From Janthinobacterium sp. 17J80-10 (GTDB lineage: Bacteria > Pseudomonadota > Gammaproteobacteria > Burkholderiales > Burkholderiaceae_D), in assembly GCF_004114795.1 (NCBI RefSeq), contig NZ_CP035311.1, forward strand, positions 3,100,001-3,164,000: 64,000 bases of DNA, written 5' to 3'. The position numbers and the translations under genes were made by a program. The notes beneath the pieces were generated by a model that ran no database searches, was not told the origin of the DNA, and saw only the letters and a list, made by a program, of their open reading frames with translations. Shown in pieces: positions 20,671-28,626 of the stretch (within the stretch, counting starts at the first letter, position 1; every line of letters begins with the position of its first letter).

Positions 20671-21138
20671 ACTCGCTTTCGCAATCGATCAACCACCAGA
20701 GACGCATTCATCGACGCCTTGAGCGAACGCTCGCAGGTCATTTCTTCTTGAAAGAGAGTCGGGTATGCAGCTTTTCGATGTAACGCCTTTCCATATTTGC
20801 TCCCTGCAATAAATCCTATGGTTATCCCTGGCGCATTTCCTTAATCTAGCTTAAGAAATTCCAGGCTTGTCGACGAGGACTGGCGAATTTTCTAAAATCA
20901 CAACGCATCTAAAGTCCGGTTCCAGGCAATAAGTAATGGTTGCGTTATCTAAAATTCCAAATGCATTTCGATATAAAACCTTGAACAATTTTTTAGAAAT
21001 GTTTCCACATCGTCATCTGAGCGATAAATGCCGCAGCAAGAGTATTTGTTCAAGAAAAGCGAAAGCCACGAAACCTGCATCGGGGCGCTGAGGCCATTTG
21101 CGACGTTATTCAAAAAACGGGTGAACAAGGAGAAAGAC
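20671..21138. other. Intergenic and presumed nirK control region
   Basis: 468 bp without a supported gene between the DUF3079 and nirK genes. It is AT-richer near 20880-21000. It contains two copies of TCTAAAAT (about 20890 and 20948), an NsrR-like half-site AAATGCATTT at 20959-20968, and a TATAAA at 20973-20978 that could be a -10 element. No canonical TTGAT-N4-ATCAA box was seen. AAGGAG at 21127-21132 is the nirK ribosome site. Confidence 0.5.
20959..20968 (+). promoter_or_regulatory. NsrR-like half-site upstream of nirK
   Basis: AAATGCATTT matches nine of ten positions of the NsrR half-site AGATGCATTT; the second half of the dyad is poor. NsrR is the nitric-oxide-sensing repressor that controls nirK-type genes in Neisseria. 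The call is tentative. Confidence 0.3.
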
Positions 21139-22653
21139 GTGAATTCAAAAGAGCGCATCGTCCATGCATGCAGTTATCGTTGGATACTTCGCCGTGCAGG
21201 CGCTACCTTGTTCGCACTGGCTCTCGTGCTGACGGGTGGTTGCAGCCGCGAAACGCCCAAAGTCGAACCGAAAGCATCCGCACCAACTGCAACGACAACG
21301 ATTGAGCTCAATTCACCGCCCGCGAAAGTTTCAACTGAAAAGCGCACCGGACCGTTCGCCGAAGGCGCCGCGCTCAATATGGGGGCTGCGCTCAAGCCGC
21401 TCGACCCATCGCCCGTCAAGACCATACGACTCGATACCACGCACAAAATCATCGAAATTGCTCCCGGCGTGAAATTTAGTGCGTGGACCTTTGGCGATCA
21501 GGTACCGGGCCCCACCATACGCGCGCGCGTCGGAGACAAAATCAAATTCGTCATGACCAACCGCAGCGACGAAGCCGTGCCGGGTGTGCAGTTTGCCGCG
21601 GCGCCGATGATGCATTCAATGGATTTTCATGCCGCCATGGTGTCGCCGCAAGACAAATACCGCTCGATTGCACCGGGCCAGACGATTGAATTCGAGTTCA
21701 CCTTGAATTATCCCGGCGTCTTCATGTTCCATTGCGGCACGCCGATGATCCTGGAACACATTGCCTCAGGCATGTACGGCGCGCTCATCGTCGAGCCGCG
21801 AGAGGGTTACCCGACCAAGGTCGACCGCGAATACATCGTGACCCAGAGCGAGTTTTACGTGAAGCCCGATCCGCAAAACCGCAAGATCGATGGACAACCC
21901 CTGTATCTGCTCGATGGCGACAATCTGAAAAAAGCCATGCCCAGCTATACGGTATTCAACGGCAAGCATAACGGCATGGTCAAGCAGCCCCTTCCTGCCA
22001 AGCCGGGCGAACGCGTGCGCCTGTTCGTCATGAATGTCGGCCCGAGCAAAACGTCCAGTTTTCACGTGGTCGGCACCATCTTTGACCGCGTCTGGATCGA
22101 AGGCAACCCGAAGAACGAATTTCACGGCATGCAAACCGTGCTGCTCGGTTCATCCAACAGCGCCATTGTCGAGTTCATCGTCCCGGAAGCCGGGCAGTAC
22201 ATCATGGTGGACCATCACTTCGCCAACGCCTCGCAAGGGGCGATCGGCTTGATTGACGCCGGCCCCGCCAAACCGGTGGACAAAGGCGATCTCGAGCATC
22301 ACAACATGCCGGCCACCTCCAGCCCTACAGATCCGGAGGCGGTGCAAGCGAAGCTCGATTTCGAGAGTAAATGTCTGGCCTGCCATTCGATCGGACGCGG
22401 CAAGAGGCTGGGTCCGGATCTGCTTGGCATCACCAAACGGCGCACCGACGAGTGGCTAACCAGATGGCTGAAGACGCCGGAGAAAATGCTGGAGACCGAT
22501 GCCGACGCCAAGGCGATGCTGAAGGAGTTTAACAACGTTCCCATGCCCAACCAAAACCTCGGCGACAAGGAAGTCGCGCAATACTTGAAGTACTTCCACT
22601 GGATCGATTCCCAGCCACCGGGCGTCATCCACAGCGCCGAAGGAAGCCACTGA
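21139..22653 (+). CDS. nirK: Copper nitrite reductase NirK with fused C-terminal cytochrome c
   Basis: 504 residues, catalysing nitrite to NO in the periplasm. A signal sequence with lipoprotein-like end (VLTGGC, Cys 35) suggests membrane anchoring. Two cupredoxin domains follow, with type 1 copper ligands His159, Cys198-199 region HC, His207 and Met212 (FHCGTP, H, GM), type 2 ligands His164 with catalytic Asp162 in HSMDFH, later His in SFHVVG and in VDHHFANAS. The C-terminal domain is a c-type cytochrome with CLACH (412-416) and axial Met about 469 in VPMPNQ; electrons can reach the copper site internally, as in Ralstonia-type three-domain enzymes. Start: GTG at 21139 with AAGGAG 6 nt upstream, not the longer 541-residue frame. 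It opens the nir-nor cluster. Confidence 0.96.
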   Translation: MNSKERIVHACSYRWILRRAGATLFALALVLTGGCSRETPKVEPKASAPTATTTIELNSPPAKVSTEKRTGPFAEGAALNMGAALKPLDPSPVKTIRLDTTHKIIEIAPGVKFSAWTFGDQVPGPTIRARVGDKIKFVMTNRSDEAVPGVQFAAAPMMHSMDFHAAMVSPQDKYRSIAPGQTIEFEFTLNYPGVFMFHCGTPMILEHIASGMYGALIVEPREGYPTKVDREYIVTQSEFYVKPDPQNRKIDGQPLYLLDGDNLKKAMPSYTVFNGKHNGMVKQPLPAKPGERVRLFVMNVGPSKTSSFHVVGTIFDRVWIEGNPKNEFHGMQTVLLGSSNSAIVEFIVPEAGQYIMVDHHFANASQGAIGLIDAGPAKPVDKGDLEHHNMPATSSPTDPEAVQAKLDFESKCLACHSIGRGKRLGPDLLGITKRRTDEWLTRWLKTPEKMLETDADAKAMLKEFNNVPMPNQNLGDKEVAQYLKYFHWIDSQPPGVIHSAEGSH

Positions 22654-22655
22654 TC

Positions 22656-23081
22656 ATGCGAGCCTTCGTCTGTGCCGCCGGGTTCCTGCTTGCGATTCAT
22701 GGGCCACCGGCCAATGCATGCGGCCACTGCGTGGAGGACAAGATCGCGGCAGTATATGACCATGTCATCGTGACCAAGGCCCAGGCCCAAGGGCATCCGG
22801 TGGCCTTCTTCGCCATCGATGGCGAGATTGTTCAGGACGAGACAACACGGCGCGCCATCGAAACCATGGTGCGCTCGACAAATGGCGTGGATCAGGACAG
22901 CGTGCGCGTATCGCTTGAACTGGCGTCGATTTCCTTTTCTTTCGATCCCAAGCGTGCCCGGATTGCCGCGGTTGTAAATGCGCTGGGAACCAGGCTTTCC
23001 AGCAAAAATCTGCGTCTGCTGGAATTGAAAATTCTGGACCATGCCCTTCCCCTCAAAGCCGTTCGCACCAGTCCTAGTTGA
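22656..23081 (+). CDS. Small exported CxxC protein linked to nirK
   Basis: 141 residues, family not recognised. A signal peptide is present (MRAFVCAAGFLLAIHGPPANA) and the mature protein starts with CGHCVEDKIAAVYDHVIVTKA, a CxxC with His that could bind copper or a heme-handling partner. The rest resembles a small alpha/beta domain without Cys, with VRVSLELASISFSFDPKRARIAAVVNAL near the end, which recalls a ferredoxin-like metal-binding fold (HMA type). The ATG at 22656 lies 2 nt after the nirK stop, so the two are cotranscribed. A copper-delivery or assembly role for NirK is a reasonable guess but is not shown by the sequence. Confidence 0.7.
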   Translation: MRAFVCAAGFLLAIHGPPANACGHCVEDKIAAVYDHVIVTKAQAQGHPVAFFAIDGEIVQDETTRRAIETMVRSTNGVDQDSVRVSLELASISFSFDPKRARIAAVVNALGTRLSSKNLRLLELKILDHALPLKAVRTSPS

Positions 23082-23249: not shown

Positions 23250-23375
23250 ATGCCTGACATATTGATGCGCGGCCCATTGAAATGGGTCAGCTTATTGGTA
23301 CTGCTATTAATGGCTGTTGCCATCTTCTATGCAGGATTCATATCGGTTAAATACTGGGCCGGCATCGGCGTTTGA
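23250..23375 (+). CDS. 41-residue single-pass membrane protein upstream of norC
   Basis: ATG at 23250 to TGA at 23373-23375. The sequence starts MPDILMRGPLKWVSLL, then a strongly hydrophobic stretch of about 20 residues (VSLLVLLLLMAVAIFYAGFI), and ends SVKYWAGIGV. This is a typical one-span small protein with a short cytosolic N-terminus. An AAAAAGG sequence 9 nt ahead of the ATG could be the ribosome site. The stop is 18 bp before norC. The position, the size and the coding quality suggest a Nor accessory subunit or a stability factor, but no family is recognised. It is not NorF, which is longer with two spans. Confidence 0.65.
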   Translation: MPDILMRGPLKWVSLLVLLLMAVAIFYAGFISVKYWAGIGV

Positions 23376-23393: not shown

Positions 23394-24257
23394 ATGAATA
23401 AACGCCAGACGCGCCTGTTTGCGATCGTATCGACTGCGATTGCGTCATTGGTTTTTCTTGCATTGACGATAGACACCCATCGCCAGGTCGCCAAGCTGAC
23501 CAATGCGGAAAACATGACGAAAGAAGTCATCCTGGGCAAGGATGTCTGGCACAGGAACAACTGTATCAATTGCCATACGCTGTTTGGCGAAGGCGCCTAC
23601 TACGCACCAGACTTGACGAAGATTACACAGCATCGCGGCGCGGCCTATCTGACGGCCTACATGAAGGACCCGTCGAAGTTCTACGATGAACAGAAACACC
23701 GACGCCTGATGCCGAAACAAAACTTGAACGATCAAGACATCAGCCATCTGATCAGTTTCCTGGACTGGGTCAGCAAGATCGATAATCAGGGCTGGCCACC
23801 CCGTCCCATTATCGTGTCCGGATCAGCCATCCCGGGTGCTGCATTAAGTATTGACCAGCAGACCAAACCCGCCGGCGCCGGTCAGCAAACGCCGCCAGGC
23901 GCCCGACCCGTCACCGCAGCCGACAATCCGATTGCCATTGGTGAATCCTTATTCCGTTCGACACCGCCGGCATGTTTCGCGTGCCATTCCGTATCGCCCG
24001 GGGTCAACCTCGCCGGTCCAAGTCTCGCCGGCATAGCGACCCGCACTGAAAAAACGATTGCCTCGCCAGACTATAAGGGCAGCGCGAAGGATCTTGCAGG
24101 ATATATCAGGGAGTCCATCGTCAACCCCAGTGCGCATCTGGTGCCTGGCCCGACCTACTCAGCCAACGGTCAGTCGTTTATGCCAACAACGTATGCGAAA
24201 GATCTAAAACCCGAACAGATCGAACAGCTGGTCGCTTACCTGGCAACACTGAAGTAA
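23394..24257 (+). CDS. norC: Nitric oxide reductase cytochrome subunit NorC with an extra cytochrome c domain
   Basis: 287 residues, about twice the usual NorC length (roughly 150). N-terminal membrane anchor (about residues 8-26), then the NorC domain with heme motif CINCH (57-61) in the family context RNNCINCHTLFGEGAYYAPDL and axial Met106 (RRLMPKQ). After a Pro/Gly/Ala linker (about 140-175) comes a second c-type domain with CFACH (194-198) and likely axial Met263 (SFMPTTY). The protein passes electrons to NorB. The second heme could receive electrons from a donor such as the NirK cytochrome, which is an inference. ATG 23394 follows a weak site. norB starts 70 bp later. Confidence 0.92.
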   Translation: MNKRQTRLFAIVSTAIASLVFLALTIDTHRQVAKLTNAENMTKEVILGKDVWHRNNCINCHTLFGEGAYYAPDLTKITQHRGAAYLTAYMKDPSKFYDEQKHRRLMPKQNLNDQDISHLISFLDWVSKIDNQGWPPRPIIVSGSAIPGAALSIDQQTKPAGAGQQTPPGARPVTAADNPIAIGESLFRSTPPACFACHSVSPGVNLAGPSLAGIATRTEKTIASPDYKGSAKDLAGYIRESIVNPSAHLVPGPTYSANGQSFMPTTYAKDLKPEQIEQLVAYLATLK

Positions 24258-24327: not shown

Positions 24328-25704
24328 ATGCGGTACAAGTCTCAGCAAGTTGCGTATTGGTATTTCGCGGTAGCCATGGTGTTATTCGGGCTCCAGATTG
24401 TCTTTGGCTTACTGTCGGCAACAAAGTACCTTGGACCTGATCCGTTACTGAATATCTTGCCGTTTGATGTCACCAAGGTCATTCATACCAACCTGCTCGT
24501 GGTCTGGGTATTGACTGGATTTATGGGAGCCACGTATTGGATCGTACCCGAGGAGTCTCGGAGCGAACTGCACAGCACGAAACTGGCTTACTACCAGCTC
24601 GGCCTCTGGGTACTGATGGGGGTAACAGCCGTTATCGGCTATCTGTTTCGTTACGGCACAGGGAATAAGCTCCTGGAACAGCCAATGCCTCATAAAATCG
24701 TCATCGTCGTAGTCATGCTGATGTTTCTTTATAACGTAGGCATGACTATCAAGCGCTCGGGACGATTCACGACCACGGAAGGTGTCCTGCTGCTCGGACT
24801 TGGGTCGGCGGCCCTGCTCTATCTGCCAGCGCTCATCAACTTCAACAACTACACAATCTCTATCTTCTACCGCTGGTGGACCATCCACCTGTGGGTGGAG
24901 GGTGTCTGGGAAATGATCCAGGGCAGTTTCCTTGCTTACCTCTTGATTCGCCTGTCGGGGGCTGATCGCGAAGTCATGGAAAAATGGTTATATGTCATCG
25001 TCGGACTGGTTTTTATTGCCGGAATATTGGGCACCGCACATCATTATTATTGGGTAGGCGTGCCGCATTACTGGCTGCCGGTCGGCGGATTCTTTAGTGC
25101 TCTCGAACCTTTAGCACTGATTGGCATGGCAATGTATGCATACTCGGCAATACGACGTTCAGGATTGGCGCATCCCAATACGCTGGCGCTGCACTGGACT
25201 ATCGGTAGCGCCGTGTTTACCTTGTTCGGTGCGGGTTTACTAGGATTGGCGCACACTTGGCCGAGCGTTAATAAATGGACGCACGGCACCCTGATCACGG
25301 CAATGCATGGCCACGCTGCATTTTATGGCGCCTATGCGATGATTGTGATGGCCGTGATCAGCTACGCATTGCCGCTGATGACACCGGGCCGCAACGAACA
25401 GGGTTCCAAAGCCGGTTACTTCGCATTCTGGCTGCAGCTGGGCGGCATGTTCGGCATGACGATTTCATTTGCCACGGCAGGTATTGGCCAGGTTTATCTC
25501 GAGCGGATTCTCGGGATGGGCTACCTTGATACGCAGTTGAAAATTCAAATTCATTTCATCATGCTGATCATCACTGCGTCGCTTTTTGCAGTTGGCGTCA
25601 TGCTTTTCATCTGGGATTTCTTCCGATATGCGCCGAAGTTCGAGACCATGGGGGATGATGCGCTAATCGATGGCAAATCCGGCATTATCAGGGCCGCGAC
25701 ATAA
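24328..25704 (+). CDS. norB: Nitric oxide reductase large subunit NorB
   Basis: 458 residues, about 12 membrane spans, heme-copper oxidase superfamily, cNOR type. It reduces two NO to N2O at a heme b3-FeB centre. Visible ligands: His in TKVIHTNLLVVW (heme b), IHLWVEGVWE (FeB His with the conserved Glu pair), TAHHYYWVG (two further FeB His), and MHGHAAFYG (heme b3 and b His). The Glu in SALEPLALIG is the known near-site Glu. Length is close to the 450-470 of the cNOR family, without the quinol-oxidising N-terminal extension of qNor, so it needs NorC. ATG 24328 has ACGGAGG 7 nt upstream. It precedes norQ by 31 bp. Confidence 0.97.
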   Translation: MRYKSQQVAYWYFAVAMVLFGLQIVFGLLSATKYLGPDPLLNILPFDVTKVIHTNLLVVWVLTGFMGATYWIVPEESRSELHSTKLAYYQLGLWVLMGVTAVIGYLFRYGTGNKLLEQPMPHKIVIVVVMLMFLYNVGMTIKRSGRFTTTEGVLLLGLGSAALLYLPALINFNNYTISIFYRWWTIHLWVEGVWEMIQGSFLAYLLIRLSGADREVMEKWLYVIVGLVFIAGILGTAHHYYWVGVPHYWLPVGGFFSALEPLALIGMAMYAYSAIRRSGLAHPNTLALHWTIGSAVFTLFGAGLLGLAHTWPSVNKWTHGTLITAMHGHAAFYGAYAMIVMAVISYALPLMTPGRNEQGSKAGYFAFWLQLGGMFGMTISFATAGIGQVYLERILGMGYLDTQLKIQIHFIMLIITASLFAVGVMLFIWDFFRYAPKFETMGDDALIDGKSGIIRAAT

Positions 25705-25735
25705 TGCCACAGGCAACTGCAACTGGAGCTGTTTG

Positions 25736-26557
25736 ATGAAAGCAACGGCGCCTGTGTCATTTGACGGTATCGCGGACACCGGCAACGCGCCTTACTATGT
25801 TGCCAGCGGTGATGAAGTGCGCATTTTCGAGCAATGCCATGTGCGTAATCTCGCCGTCATGCTGAAAGGCCCGACCGGATGCGGAAAAACCCGGTTTGTC
25901 GAACATATGGCCTGGCGACTTGGCCGGCCCCTGGTCACGATCTCGTGTCATGACGACTTGACAGCGAGCGATCTTATTGGCCGCTTCCTGATCCGGCATG
26001 ACGGTACCGTTTGGCAGGATGGCCCGCTGACGCGTGCAGTGCGCGAGGGCGCAATCTGCTACCTTGATGAAATAGTGGAAGCGCGACAGGATACGGTTGT
26101 CGTTCTTCACCCGCTTACCGATTATCGGCGCAGCCTGCCACTCGATAAAACAGGCGAAATGGTCGAGGCTGCACCCGGCTTTCAGCTGGTGGTGTCCTAC
26201 AATCCTGGATACCAGCGCATGCTCAAGGACCTGAAGCCGAGCACACGCCAGCGCTTTGTCGCGCTGGACCTGGCCTTCCCTGATGCGGAGCGTGAACTCC
26301 GCATCGTCATGCATGAAAGTGGAGCAGATCATCCGACCGCCCACGCGCTGGTCTCGCTGGGGCATCGACTGCGCCGCTTGCAGGACCGTGGGCTAGCCGA
26401 AGTGCCCAGCACCCGGCTGCTGATCGCCACAGCACGCCTGATCGCCAGCGGCATTTCAGTGCGCCAAGCCTGCTATGCCGCGCTGGTATCGCCACTGTCC
26501 GATGAAATGGCATTGGTGGGGGCAATGCGTGACCTGGTTGACGCCAGCTTCGTCTGA
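25736..26557 (+). CDS. norQ: NorQ, MoxR-type AAA+ ATPase for nitric oxide reductase maturation
   Basis: 273 residues. Walker A GPTGCGKTR (about 45-53), Walker B ICYLDEIVEA (about 107-116), sensor region VVSYNPGYQRM, and arginine finger region KPSTRQRFVAL define the CbbQ/NorQ branch of MoxR ATPases. NorQ works with the VWA protein NorD to insert the non-heme iron (FeB) of NorB. The ATG at 25736 has GGAG 7 nt upstream. A longer frame starting at 25670 would overlap norB and is not supported. norD follows 44 bp downstream. Confidence 0.95.
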   Translation: MKATAPVSFDGIADTGNAPYYVASGDEVRIFEQCHVRNLAVMLKGPTGCGKTRFVEHMAWRLGRPLVTISCHDDLTASDLIGRFLIRHDGTVWQDGPLTRAVREGAICYLDEIVEARQDTVVVLHPLTDYRRSLPLDKTGEMVEAAPGFQLVVSYNPGYQRMLKDLKPSTRQRFVALDLAFPDAERELRIVMHESGADHPTAHALVSLGHRLRRLQDRGLAEVPSTRLLIATARLIASGISVRQACYAALVSPLSDEMALVGAMRDLVDASFV

Positions 26558-26601: not shown

Positions 26602-28626
26602 ATGGCTGAAGCCGAAGACGTGATGATCGATGCGGCGCGCCACGCGACCATCTTCGCGCGCAATCTGTGGCGGCGGCACCATCCAGCTTCGACGACCAAT
26701 CAGCAGGTACAACTGGCGGACGCTGCCGAGCGGCTTGGTCTGTTGATCATTGCCGTATTCGGTCAGGCATTTCCCATTCGGATATCGCAACCACCGGCCA
26801 GACTCACATTGCTGCAAGCGCTGGCGAAACGCCGCCAGGGGCCGTTGCATGATCACGCCCTTCCTGCAACCGATGGCTGCTCGATCTGGTTACCGCGCAG
26901 CGTGGGACTTTACGACACCGTTTCCGCCTTTGCACGCTATCGTGTACTGGCGTTGCAGCAGGCAATGCGCGCCGTGCGTGGCAGCGCCGAACAACTCACC
27001 TGTGGACTGACAACGGGCGAGCGTGAGGTATTCCTGCTGCTGGAAGCGGCGGCAGCCGATTATGCGCTCGTCAGGCGCTTGCCGGGATTGCGAGAATCGA
27101 TTAACGCGTTGCGGCGGGAGGCACTGCTTTTGCGCCCCGTGCCGGAAAAATTTCCGGCATACCGGCGCCAGCTGGAAACGCTGGCAAGAACGGTGCTGCA
27201 AGCCGATTGCGGCGTGGCGGCGAATGGCATCGTGCTGGCGCAATCCTCTGCCCTTGTTGCTCAACAGGCAAAGGCCATCACCAGGACTCTTGCCTTCTCT
27301 GCGCAACCTGACTGCATCCTTCTCAAGGATACCTGGACCGGTGAATTACGTGCCCCCACGATCGCTCACGGAACGCGTCCTGTTCACGCCCGATGGAATC
27401 ATCCGGAAAGCCATGTCACCAAGCCACCACGGCTTGGCCGGCTAGAGCGACGGCCGGAAGTCCGCGAGCCCAACGCCGATGAGGACGAGGAAAAGCAAGG
27501 CATGTTCATGGTGCAGACGGCACAGCCCAATGAACACGCCGAAGATCCATTGGGTATGCAACGCCCCACCGATCGCGAAGAGCATACCGCCACCGACGAA
27601 CTCGCCGAGTCGCTTGCAGATCTTCCCGAAGCACGGCTGGTTACCACCCCGGGACGCCCGAAGGAAATATTGCTGTCGGATGATACGCCGGAATTTCACG
27701 GGAAGAGAAACAAGACCAATTCAGCCTCAGGCGCTGCAACCGTCAGCTATCCGGAATGGGATTATCAGGCAAGCGCCTACCTTGAACCGGGCGCAACCCT
27801 TCGTCTGGCACCAGCCGCGTTTGGCCAACAGAAATGGGTGGCAGCAACACTTTTCAAGCACCAAGCCATGCTCAACACCATCAGGCGACGCTTTGAAATG
27901 TTGCGCGCAAATCGTGTCCGGCTATCCAGGCAACTGGACGGGGACGACATTGACCTCGACGCCTATATCGACGGCTATGCGGATTTCCGTGCCGGACGAT
28001 CGATGCCGCAAGCACTTTACCAGACGTGCCGTCCGATGCGTCGCGACATGGCGATCTCGCTCATGATCGATGTGAGTGGTTCAACCGACTCCTGGGTCTC
28101 GGACGATCGGCGCATTATCGACGTCGAGCGCGAAGCGCTGCTCCTTGTGTGCATCGCCCTTGATGGCATGGGAGAGCCGTACACGGTGCAGGCATTTTCT
28201 GGAGAGGGGCCTGACAATGTCTCAATCAAGACCATCAAAGATTTTGACGAGCGCTACGACAACGACATCGCACTCCGTATCGCTGCACTTGAGCCAGAAC
28301 ATTACACGCGCGCCGGGGCGGCGCTGCGGCACGCAACTGCATTGCTGATGCGCCAATCTGCTCATCATCGGCTGTTGGTTTTACTGTCGGATGGCAAGCC
28401 AAACGACATTGATGACTATGAAGGACGCTATGGCGTGGAAGATATGCGACAAGCAGTAGTAGAAGCACAGCTGCAGGGCGTCACGCCGTTTTGCCTGACG
28501 ATTGACCGGCACGCTGCCGGATATTTATCCCAGGTTTTTGGATTGCGGCATTACGCGTTATTGCCAAAGCCGGAATTGCTGCCGACAGTGCTGCTCGACT
28601 GGATGAAGCGACTGATGACCGCATGA
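26602..28626 (+). CDS. norD: NorD, VWA-domain activator of nitric oxide reductase
   Basis: 674 residues. A long N-terminal helical region (residues about 1-470, including an acidic low-complexity stretch with ERRPEVREPNADEDEEKQ) is followed by a C-terminal VWA domain (about 475-674) with MIDAS motif MIDVSGSTDSW (D-x-S-x-S) and LLSDGKPND. NorD pairs with NorQ to activate the NO reductase. Starts at ATG 26602, 44 bp after norQ. The gene ends the nor group: the next gene, dcd, is convergent. No norE or norF follows. No terminator was seen in the 50-bp gap. Confidence 0.93.
   Translation: MAEAEDVMIDAARHATIFARNLWRRHHPASTTNQQVQLADAAERLGLLIIAVFGQAFPIRISQPPARLTLLQALAKRRQGPLHDHALPATDGCSIWLPRSVGLYDTVSAFARYRVLALQQAMRAVRGSAEQLTCGLTTGEREVFLLLEAAAADYALVRRLPGLRESINALRREALLLRPVPEKFPAYRRQLETLARTVLQADCGVAANGIVLAQSSALVAQQAKAITRTLAFSAQPDCILLKDTWTGELRAPTIAHGTRPVHARWNHPESHVTKPPRLGRLERRPEVREPNADEDEEKQGMFMVQTAQPNEHAEDPLGMQRPTDREEHTATDELAESLADLPEARLVTTPGRPKEILLSDDTPEFHGKRNKTNSASGAATVSYPEWDYQASAYLEPGATLRLAPAAFGQQKWVAATLFKHQAMLNTIRRRFEMLRANRVRLSRQLDGDDIDLDAYIDGYADFRAGRSMPQALYQTCRPMRRDMAISLMIDVSGSTDSWVSDDRRIIDVEREALLLVCIALDGMGEPYTVQAFSGEGPDNVSIKTIKDFDERYDNDIALRIAALEPEHYTRAGAALRHATALLMRQSAHHRLLVLLSDGKPNDIDDYEGRYGVEDMRQAVVEAQLQGVTPFCLTIDRHAAGYLSQVFGLRHYALLPKPELLPTVLLDWMKRLMTA

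Follow-up and report, generated by a model that had tools for sequence, protein, structure and literature searches.

The analysed window, a 64,000-nucleotide stretch of the Janthinobacterium sp. 17J80-10 genome, contains the genes of a cNOR, the NorB-NorC type of NO reductase, all on the forward (+) strand. norC (23394..24257, +) is translated in a single frame of 287 residues without an internal stop and carries two heme c sites. It is followed by norB (24328..25704, +), whose 458-residue product keeps the catalytic residues and has Lys114 where P. aeruginosa has the Ca2+ ligand Glu135, by norQ (25670..26557, +), encoding an AAA ATPase with a CbbQ/NirQ/NorQ C-terminal domain, and by a norD-like gene for a VWA protein (26602..28626, +). 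The true start of norQ may lie later than the listed, norB-overlapping start. The presence of the accessory genes norQ and norD, here as well as in plasmid records, is as expected for a cNOR. Upstream of norC lie an unannotated 41-residue ORF (23250..23375, +) that ends 18 nt before the norC start and has one hydrophobic, likely transmembrane stretch, a 141-residue ORF (22656..23081, +) with weak similarity to copper chaperones (CopZ), and a nirK-like gene for a copper nitrite reductase with a C-terminal cytochrome c domain (21028..22653, +).

The original prediction held that this NorC combines two c-heme motifs in one polypeptide, joined by a Pro/Gly/Ala linker, and both statements are correct. 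The CxxCH motifs are CINCH at residues 57-61 (23562..23576, +) and CFACH at residues 194-198 (23973..23987, +), and the Pfam models Cytochrom_C and Cytochrome_CBB3 each match two stretches of the protein. The N-terminal domain (residues 1-137; 23394..23804, +) comprises the membrane anchor and heme c site 1, for which Met106 is the likely axial ligand; residues 16-137 match the P. aeruginosa NorC chain 3o0r_C with E 3.5e-25, and 4xyd_B is matched as well. The linker (approximately residues 138-175; 23805..23918, +) belongs to a segment rich in Pro, Gly, Ala, Gln and Thr that extends to about residue 178, and its length differs among homologues. The second cytochrome c domain (residues 176-287; 23919..24254, +) is matched best, among solved structures, by 1w2l (E 7e-7), a cytochrome c domain from a caa3 oxidase, and Met263 (24180-24182, +) is the likely axial ligand of heme c site 2. 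Judging by these matches, domain 1 is NorC proper and domain 2 most resembles a caa3 oxidase cytochrome c domain; both hemes are presumably attached to the protein. A structure model built from 87 aligned NorCs, which superseded a poor model from 21 rows (mean pLDDT 59), reached a mean pLDDT of 83 and a pTM of 0.64; the linker was modelled with low confidence (block means 51-73). A Foldseek search with this model ranked 3o0r_C and 4xyd_B at the top, then a designed cytochrome trimer and then 1w2l (E 0.07). Sequence match and model thus agree that NorC is a separate membrane-anchored subunit with a heme c site, as in cNOR; it departs from the single heme c per NorC that is usual for cNOR, a feature that is not strictly defining.

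Two cytochrome domains in one frame could in principle arise from two genes fused by a frameshift or an assembly error at the linker, but the same one-frame, two-heme layout recurs at 37 loci of what we term the window type, the window included, and is therefore not an assembly error. The 36 further loci comprise 18 full-length ones from named genomes, two from relatives, four from an order sample, two from a phylum sample, two plasmids, three Gemmatimonadota and five Myxococcota not counted before; L020, clipped by a contig end, was excluded from these counts. A further 33 Myxococcota NorCs of a sister type, beginning with MLSKS or similar, likewise have two CxxCH motifs in one frame. With no point found in its favour, we regard an artefact as next to impossible. 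The search for homologues that the prediction had called for thus yielded 37 window-type and 33 MLSKS-type two-heme NorCs, and the layout is no peculiarity of the window. Alignment A3, of 35 window-type, 32 MLSKS-type and 20 single-heme NorC rows, did not include L173, which has a single domain, L181, for which no start was found, or the two plasmid loci. In this alignment, C57, C60, H61, M106, C194, C197, H198 and M263 were identical in 35/35 window-type rows, and the same held for the two CxxCH motifs and the two Met ligands in 32/32 MLSKS-type rows. The Cys and His residues of site 1 were also invariant in 20/20 single-heme rows, which were gapped over domain 2. The two plasmid sequences, aligned apart, agreed on the heme-site residues.

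The two-heme layout is usual in Myxococcota and rarer in Gemmatimonadota and in Beta- and Gammaproteobacteria. A scan of genome contigs recovered 18 full-length NorC homologues and one clipped by a contig end, and a search for relatives in 60 genomes (the window's own included) gave 15 matching genomes, three of them with both domains. In the order sample, 92 of 399 genomes matched the NorC profile at E<=1e-15, five over the full length; in the phylum sample, 65 of 398 matched, three over the full length, and two of these three also hold a single-heme NorC. The gammaproteobacterial genomes G706 and G449 (same GTDB class) have an ordinary NorC approximately 4 kb or less from a cytochrome d1 gene (G706:C12; G449:C1 and G449:C16), and the two-heme NorC lies elsewhere in the same genome. 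Seven of 249 Gemmatimonadota genomes matched, four with the window type; the others were a different two-heme variant (G926), a match clipped at a contig end (G849) and one with a single CxxCH (G970). Among Myxococcota, 40 of 235 genomes matched, and 39 of the 40 NorCs have two CxxCH motifs (six of window type, 33 of the sister type). The fortieth, in G1252 (L173), has one heme site, with norB directly after the norC stop; this looks like a natural loss of domain 2 within the two-heme branch, or may be an assembly matter. Two plasmid records carry a window-type NorC annotated just as cytochrome c or c-type cytochrome. On one of them, Aquabacterium olei plasmid pTB101 (L140), the two-heme norC-norB-norQ-norD cluster lies beside norR and ytfE, a setting that suggests NO detoxification rather than denitrification there.

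To place the enzyme among cNORs, we built trees of NorB and of NorC domain 1, both of them quick reconstructions without bootstrap. By tblastn, identity to the window NorB was 63-88% for window-type, 51-56% for MLSKS-type and 41-47% for single-heme enzymes. The second NorB tree, of 81 sequences with distant NORs included, separated 32 single-heme rows (from 54) from 22 window-type (of 36) and 20 MLSKS-type rows (of 34), with an SH-aLRT of 98 for each of the branches dividing single-heme from two-heme-branch rows. The 56 single-heme NorBs originally collected include G048 twice, and L066 and L071 were taken out before this tree; the NorB of G1252, which accompanies a one-heme NorC, is counted among the 34 MLSKS-type NorBs. 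The domain 1 tree gave the same split (SH-aLRT 99), and in both trees the window sequences group with their two-heme relatives. By these trees, the layout characterises a single deep branch within cNOR. Burkholderiales and Gammaproteobacteria NorBs are interspersed with Myxococcota and Gemmatimonadota members, which suggests horizontal transfer. The idea that every two-heme NorC goes back to one origin was rejected: L137 falls with the single-heme L031 and L032, while L134-L136 and L189 fall elsewhere, the position of L189 being unsure owing to a long branch. These are separate NorC-like fusions, those of L134-L136 being from Burkholderiales with NorBs about 30% identical; in an unrelated fusion, domain 2 matches 1w2l with E 1.5e-18.

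The NorB subunits of the branch combine an intact catalytic site with changes elsewhere. Using P. aeruginosa numbering, assigned through alignments to the NorC and NorB chains of 3o0r, the window NorB aligns to 3o0r_B with E 1e-106, its Lys114 corresponding to Glu135 and its Glu117 to Glu138. The FeB ligands (three His and Glu211) and Glu280 are present in 70/70 branch NorBs, the window included, and Glu138 and the tested FeB and heme ligands are kept throughout, except for a single gap in each subclade at the position of the first heme b ligand. Position 135 is Lys in 70/70 branch NorBs and Glu in 56/56 single-heme rows; Lys199 is absent from all 70 and present in all 56. Two further residues differ between the subclades: Asp198 and Arg134 are each kept in 3/36 window-type and 34/34 MLSKS-type NorBs. 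Within the window type, Glu215 is substituted in 5/36 NorBs, NorC Glu57 is found in 0/35 rows and NorC Lys53 in 20/35, and the NorC Ca2+ ligands Gly71 and Tyr73 are kept in 35/35; the NorC loop GEGAY is kept too. At one locus (L123 / L023, G005:C50), the norB match starts only at residue 108, and the sequence before it may be read in a different frame. The exchange of Glu135 for Lys is not exclusive to two-heme enzymes, an idea we rejected: the single-heme L031 and L032 also have Lys at this position. With L137 as a further case, it is not confined to the branch either.

Published work gives these positions a functional context. In the available text of PMC4816578, the Ca2+ ligands are NorB Glu135 and NorC Gly71 and Tyr73, and position 135 in nature is 88% E and 9% K. 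The Ca2+ site with Glu135 is therefore a usual, not universal, feature of cNOR, and its replacement leaves the membership of the window enzyme standing. For P. denitrificans, the same text gives, as background, loss of activity in D185A (Asp198), an activity of 9% in R121Q (Arg134) and of 14% or 35% in E122A (Glu135), and 83% retained by E122D in older work; it also gives a pKa of 6.6 for the proton donor of that cNOR. According to the accessible part of PMC3431322, Glu135, Asp198, Lys53c and Glu57c sit in channel 1. From the alignments, the window subclade has lost most of its proton channel 1 residues. Given the changes at Glu135 and Lys199 and the channel 1 losses of the window type, proton uptake and the holding together of the two b hemes probably work differently in this branch than in classical cNOR.

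The 41-residue ORF upstream of norC recurs across the window subclade. A profile built from 24 such ORFs matched at the same place in 32/37 window-type loci (E<1e-6), eight of these loci lying outside the profile; the remaining five gave weak matches (E 0.0008 to 1.8). At that place, the profile search found the ORF in 0/34 MLSKS-type loci and 0/59 single-heme loci (from 55 genomes), five of the latter giving chance-level matches on the opposite strand (E 3.6-4.4). Across 300 pairs from 25 loci, synonymous differences exceeded nonsynonymous ones in 298 pairs in the ORF's own frame, and in 121 and 18 pairs in the other two frames. The ORF had no match above cut-off in Pfam or NCBIfam, and its best PDB match had E 0.88. 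It is not shown in either plasmid record, the gene tables of which are incomplete. In three basal Myxococcota loci (L151, L152 and L153), the small ORF and norC are separated by an additional ORF that is short and hydrophobic. Upstream of nirK or of the small ORF in the window, we found no FNR/NNR-like box with <=2 mismatches to TTGAT-N4-ATCAA; such a box with 2 mismatches was present in 2/16 other loci.

In the earlier reading, NorC and the neighbouring cytochrome-bearing NirK could share an electron wire and keep NO transfer local. As an explanation of the layout, this would mean that the second NorC heme and the NirK cytochrome domain evolved to that end. The cytochrome-bearing nirK just upstream of norC in the window speaks for this idea, as do two Myxococcota loci (L170 and L179) with another cytochrome-bearing NirK approximately 2 kb or less from a related norC; a third, L171, gave a partial match. 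Occurrence speaks against it. Among 28 genomes with a two-domain NorC, the window-type NirK-cytochrome was found in four (G000, the window's own, and G005, G268 and G794), and it adjoins norC in the window alone: the two genes lie on separate contigs in G005 and 1.9 Mb apart in G268, and no such nirK lies closer than 6 kb to norC in G794. NirK-like matches of whatever type (E<=1e-20) were found in 17/28, the weakest of which (G297 and G449) may represent multicopper proteins of another kind, while 8/28 have full cytochrome d1 (NirS-type) matches and 4/28 match neither; G029 has cytochrome d1 fragments only. Since the window-type NirK occurs in 4/28 genomes and adjoins norC only here, a shared wire is not supported as the cause of the layout, and we consider this explanation highly improbable. 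The domain reading of the original prediction stands, and a fused donor is its natural extension. Local NO transfer between NirK and NorC may still occur in this cell, because cytochrome-bearing NirKs occur near norC at L170 and L179 and because NirK homologues have the look of lipoproteins. On visual inspection, the lipoboxes of L099, L100 and L133 are good and that of the window (TGGC) is less typical. For comparison, the cd1 nitrite reductase-cNOR interaction in P. denitrificans is described as transient only in the available text of PMC6872814.

Other observations concern NirK itself. The window NirK (541 aa) scores under the NCBIfam NirK cut-off. The 141-residue ORF adjoins this nirK type in all 5 genomes where that nirK was seen, and is perhaps its copper chaperone. 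The window genome has a second NirK outside the window (C1:3304558-3305361), 41% identical to the first and of the commoner type in genomes with this NorC. A conserved nirK-norC unit was not found among the examined loci. An origin of NorC domain 2 as a recent copy of the NirK cytochrome was not supported either, its best match elsewhere in its own genome having E 0.135 and the NirK cytochrome E 0.239.

Compared with known systems, the window enzyme is a real variant of a known enzyme. Relative to classical cNOR (P. aeruginosa 3o0r and Roseobacter denitrificans 4xyd), NorB and NorC domain 1 align over their full length, and the catalytic residues and the GEGAY loop are shared. The branch differs in its second cytochrome c domain, in Lys at position 135 and in the loss of Lys199, and the window type further loses most instances of Asp198, Arg134 and NorC Glu57 and gains the small membrane ORF. 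In caa3 oxidase (subunit II with a fused cytochrome c; 1w2l, 2yev), a donor cytochrome is similarly fused to the electron-entry subunit, if domain 2 is indeed a donor. That oxidase belongs to another enzyme family, and electrons enter it through CuA, whereas they enter NorC through a heme. A diheme norC has already been named in Thiobacillus denitrificans: the accessible part of PMC3753534 lists Tbd_0822 as "Non-canonical norC (diheme; Beller et al., 2006a)", reports that Fe(II) oxidation was unimpaired in the corresponding mutant and gives a primer for Tbd_0822 reading VWHENN. Trp-His at the primer position occurs in 32/35 window-type, 0/32 MLSKS-type and 0/20 single-heme rows. Tbd_0822 is thus probably of the window type, as likened through its primer residues and description in that part of the source, which describes no branch, residue changes or small ORF. 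The available text of PMC8756737 describes cytochrome C1 domains in NOR-annotated or NorC-like ORFs of Nitrospirae and one Geobacteraceae, which resemble our case, by description, in having a further cytochrome in a NorC-like ORF of other taxa. A literature search of limited coverage, in sources partly available, returned no account of the branch, the set of residue changes or the small ORF. The proviso that the layout might prove common and already described therefore applies in part: one branch usually has it, and the literature already mentions a diheme norC.

We consider it fairly probable that the enzyme is a cNOR of a distinct branch in which NorC has its own tethered second cytochrome c acting as donor. 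Electrons from the bc1 complex or a soluble carrier would reach the heme of the C-terminal NorC domain, pass to the NorC heme c and from there to heme b and the heme b3/FeB site of NorB, where two NO would be reduced to N2O, the reaction predicted for this enzyme. By analogy with caa3 oxidase, the fused domain may transfer electrons intramolecularly as a built-in donor, which would lessen the reliance on a diffusible one, and protons would enter by a route other than the classical channel 1. The matches of domain 1 to solved NorC and of domain 2 and the domain 2 of an unrelated fusion to 1w2l, the invariant heme ligands, the retained catalytic NorB residues and norQ/norD, the agreement of the NorB and NorC trees and the best match of the sister-type domain 2, the caa3 subunit 2yev_B (E 2.8e-6), all fit a tethered donor. 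Against it, the sister-type domain 2 matches the NorC chain 3o0r_C nearly as well (E 8.8e-6), and a caa3-like origin is therefore not proved. In addition, the Foldseek match to 1w2l is weak, the model leaves the placement of the linker uncertain and does not establish a productive heme-heme distance, and the single-heme NorC of G1252 implies that domain 2 can be lost.

That loss, along with the long and flexible linker, would also suit a different role for the second heme, in which it stores electrons for the two-electron reaction or serves in docking while soluble donors pass electrons straight to the NorC heme; the member without domain 2 may manage with such direct reduction of heme 1. We judge such a role unlikely, given that domain 2 resembles the donor domain of caa3 oxidases and is nearly always retained (39/40 in the Myxococcota sample). 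The main role might also be something other than NO respiration, such as reducing a different gas or removing NO in the presence of oxygen, with the Ca2+ site and the extra heme reflecting it. The exchange of Glu135 for Lys, the loss of Lys199, the lack of most channel 1 residues in the window type and the one plasmid locus beside norR and ytfE would be in keeping with this, but Glu211, Glu280, Glu138 and the FeB histidines are kept, as are norQ and norD, and we give this reading very little credence. The tethered donor thus remains our preferred interpretation.

Taken more broadly, the chances appear about even that these enzymes form an unrecognised, Myxococcota-centred cNOR branch that has spread to Beta- and Gammaproteobacteria, combining a built-in donor, Lys at a Ca2+ ligand position and a rebuilt proton entry with, in the window subclade, a membrane subunit of approximately 40 residues. 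The proton route of cNOR and the role of its bridging Ca2+ are now discussed on the basis of mutants from a handful of enzymes. The present case is a natural branch that has Glu135 and Lys199 changed throughout, and Asp198 in one of its two subclades, with the catalytic residues intact. Because P. denitrificans variants at Asp198, Arg134 and Glu135 lose much or all activity in the available text of PMC4816578, the branch makes this question directly testable. If the proposal is true, the side-chain amine of the Lys may replace or displace the heme-bridging calcium, and the fused donor would alter what limits NO consumption, and hence the release of NO and N2O, in soil myxobacteria and denitrifying Burkholderiales.
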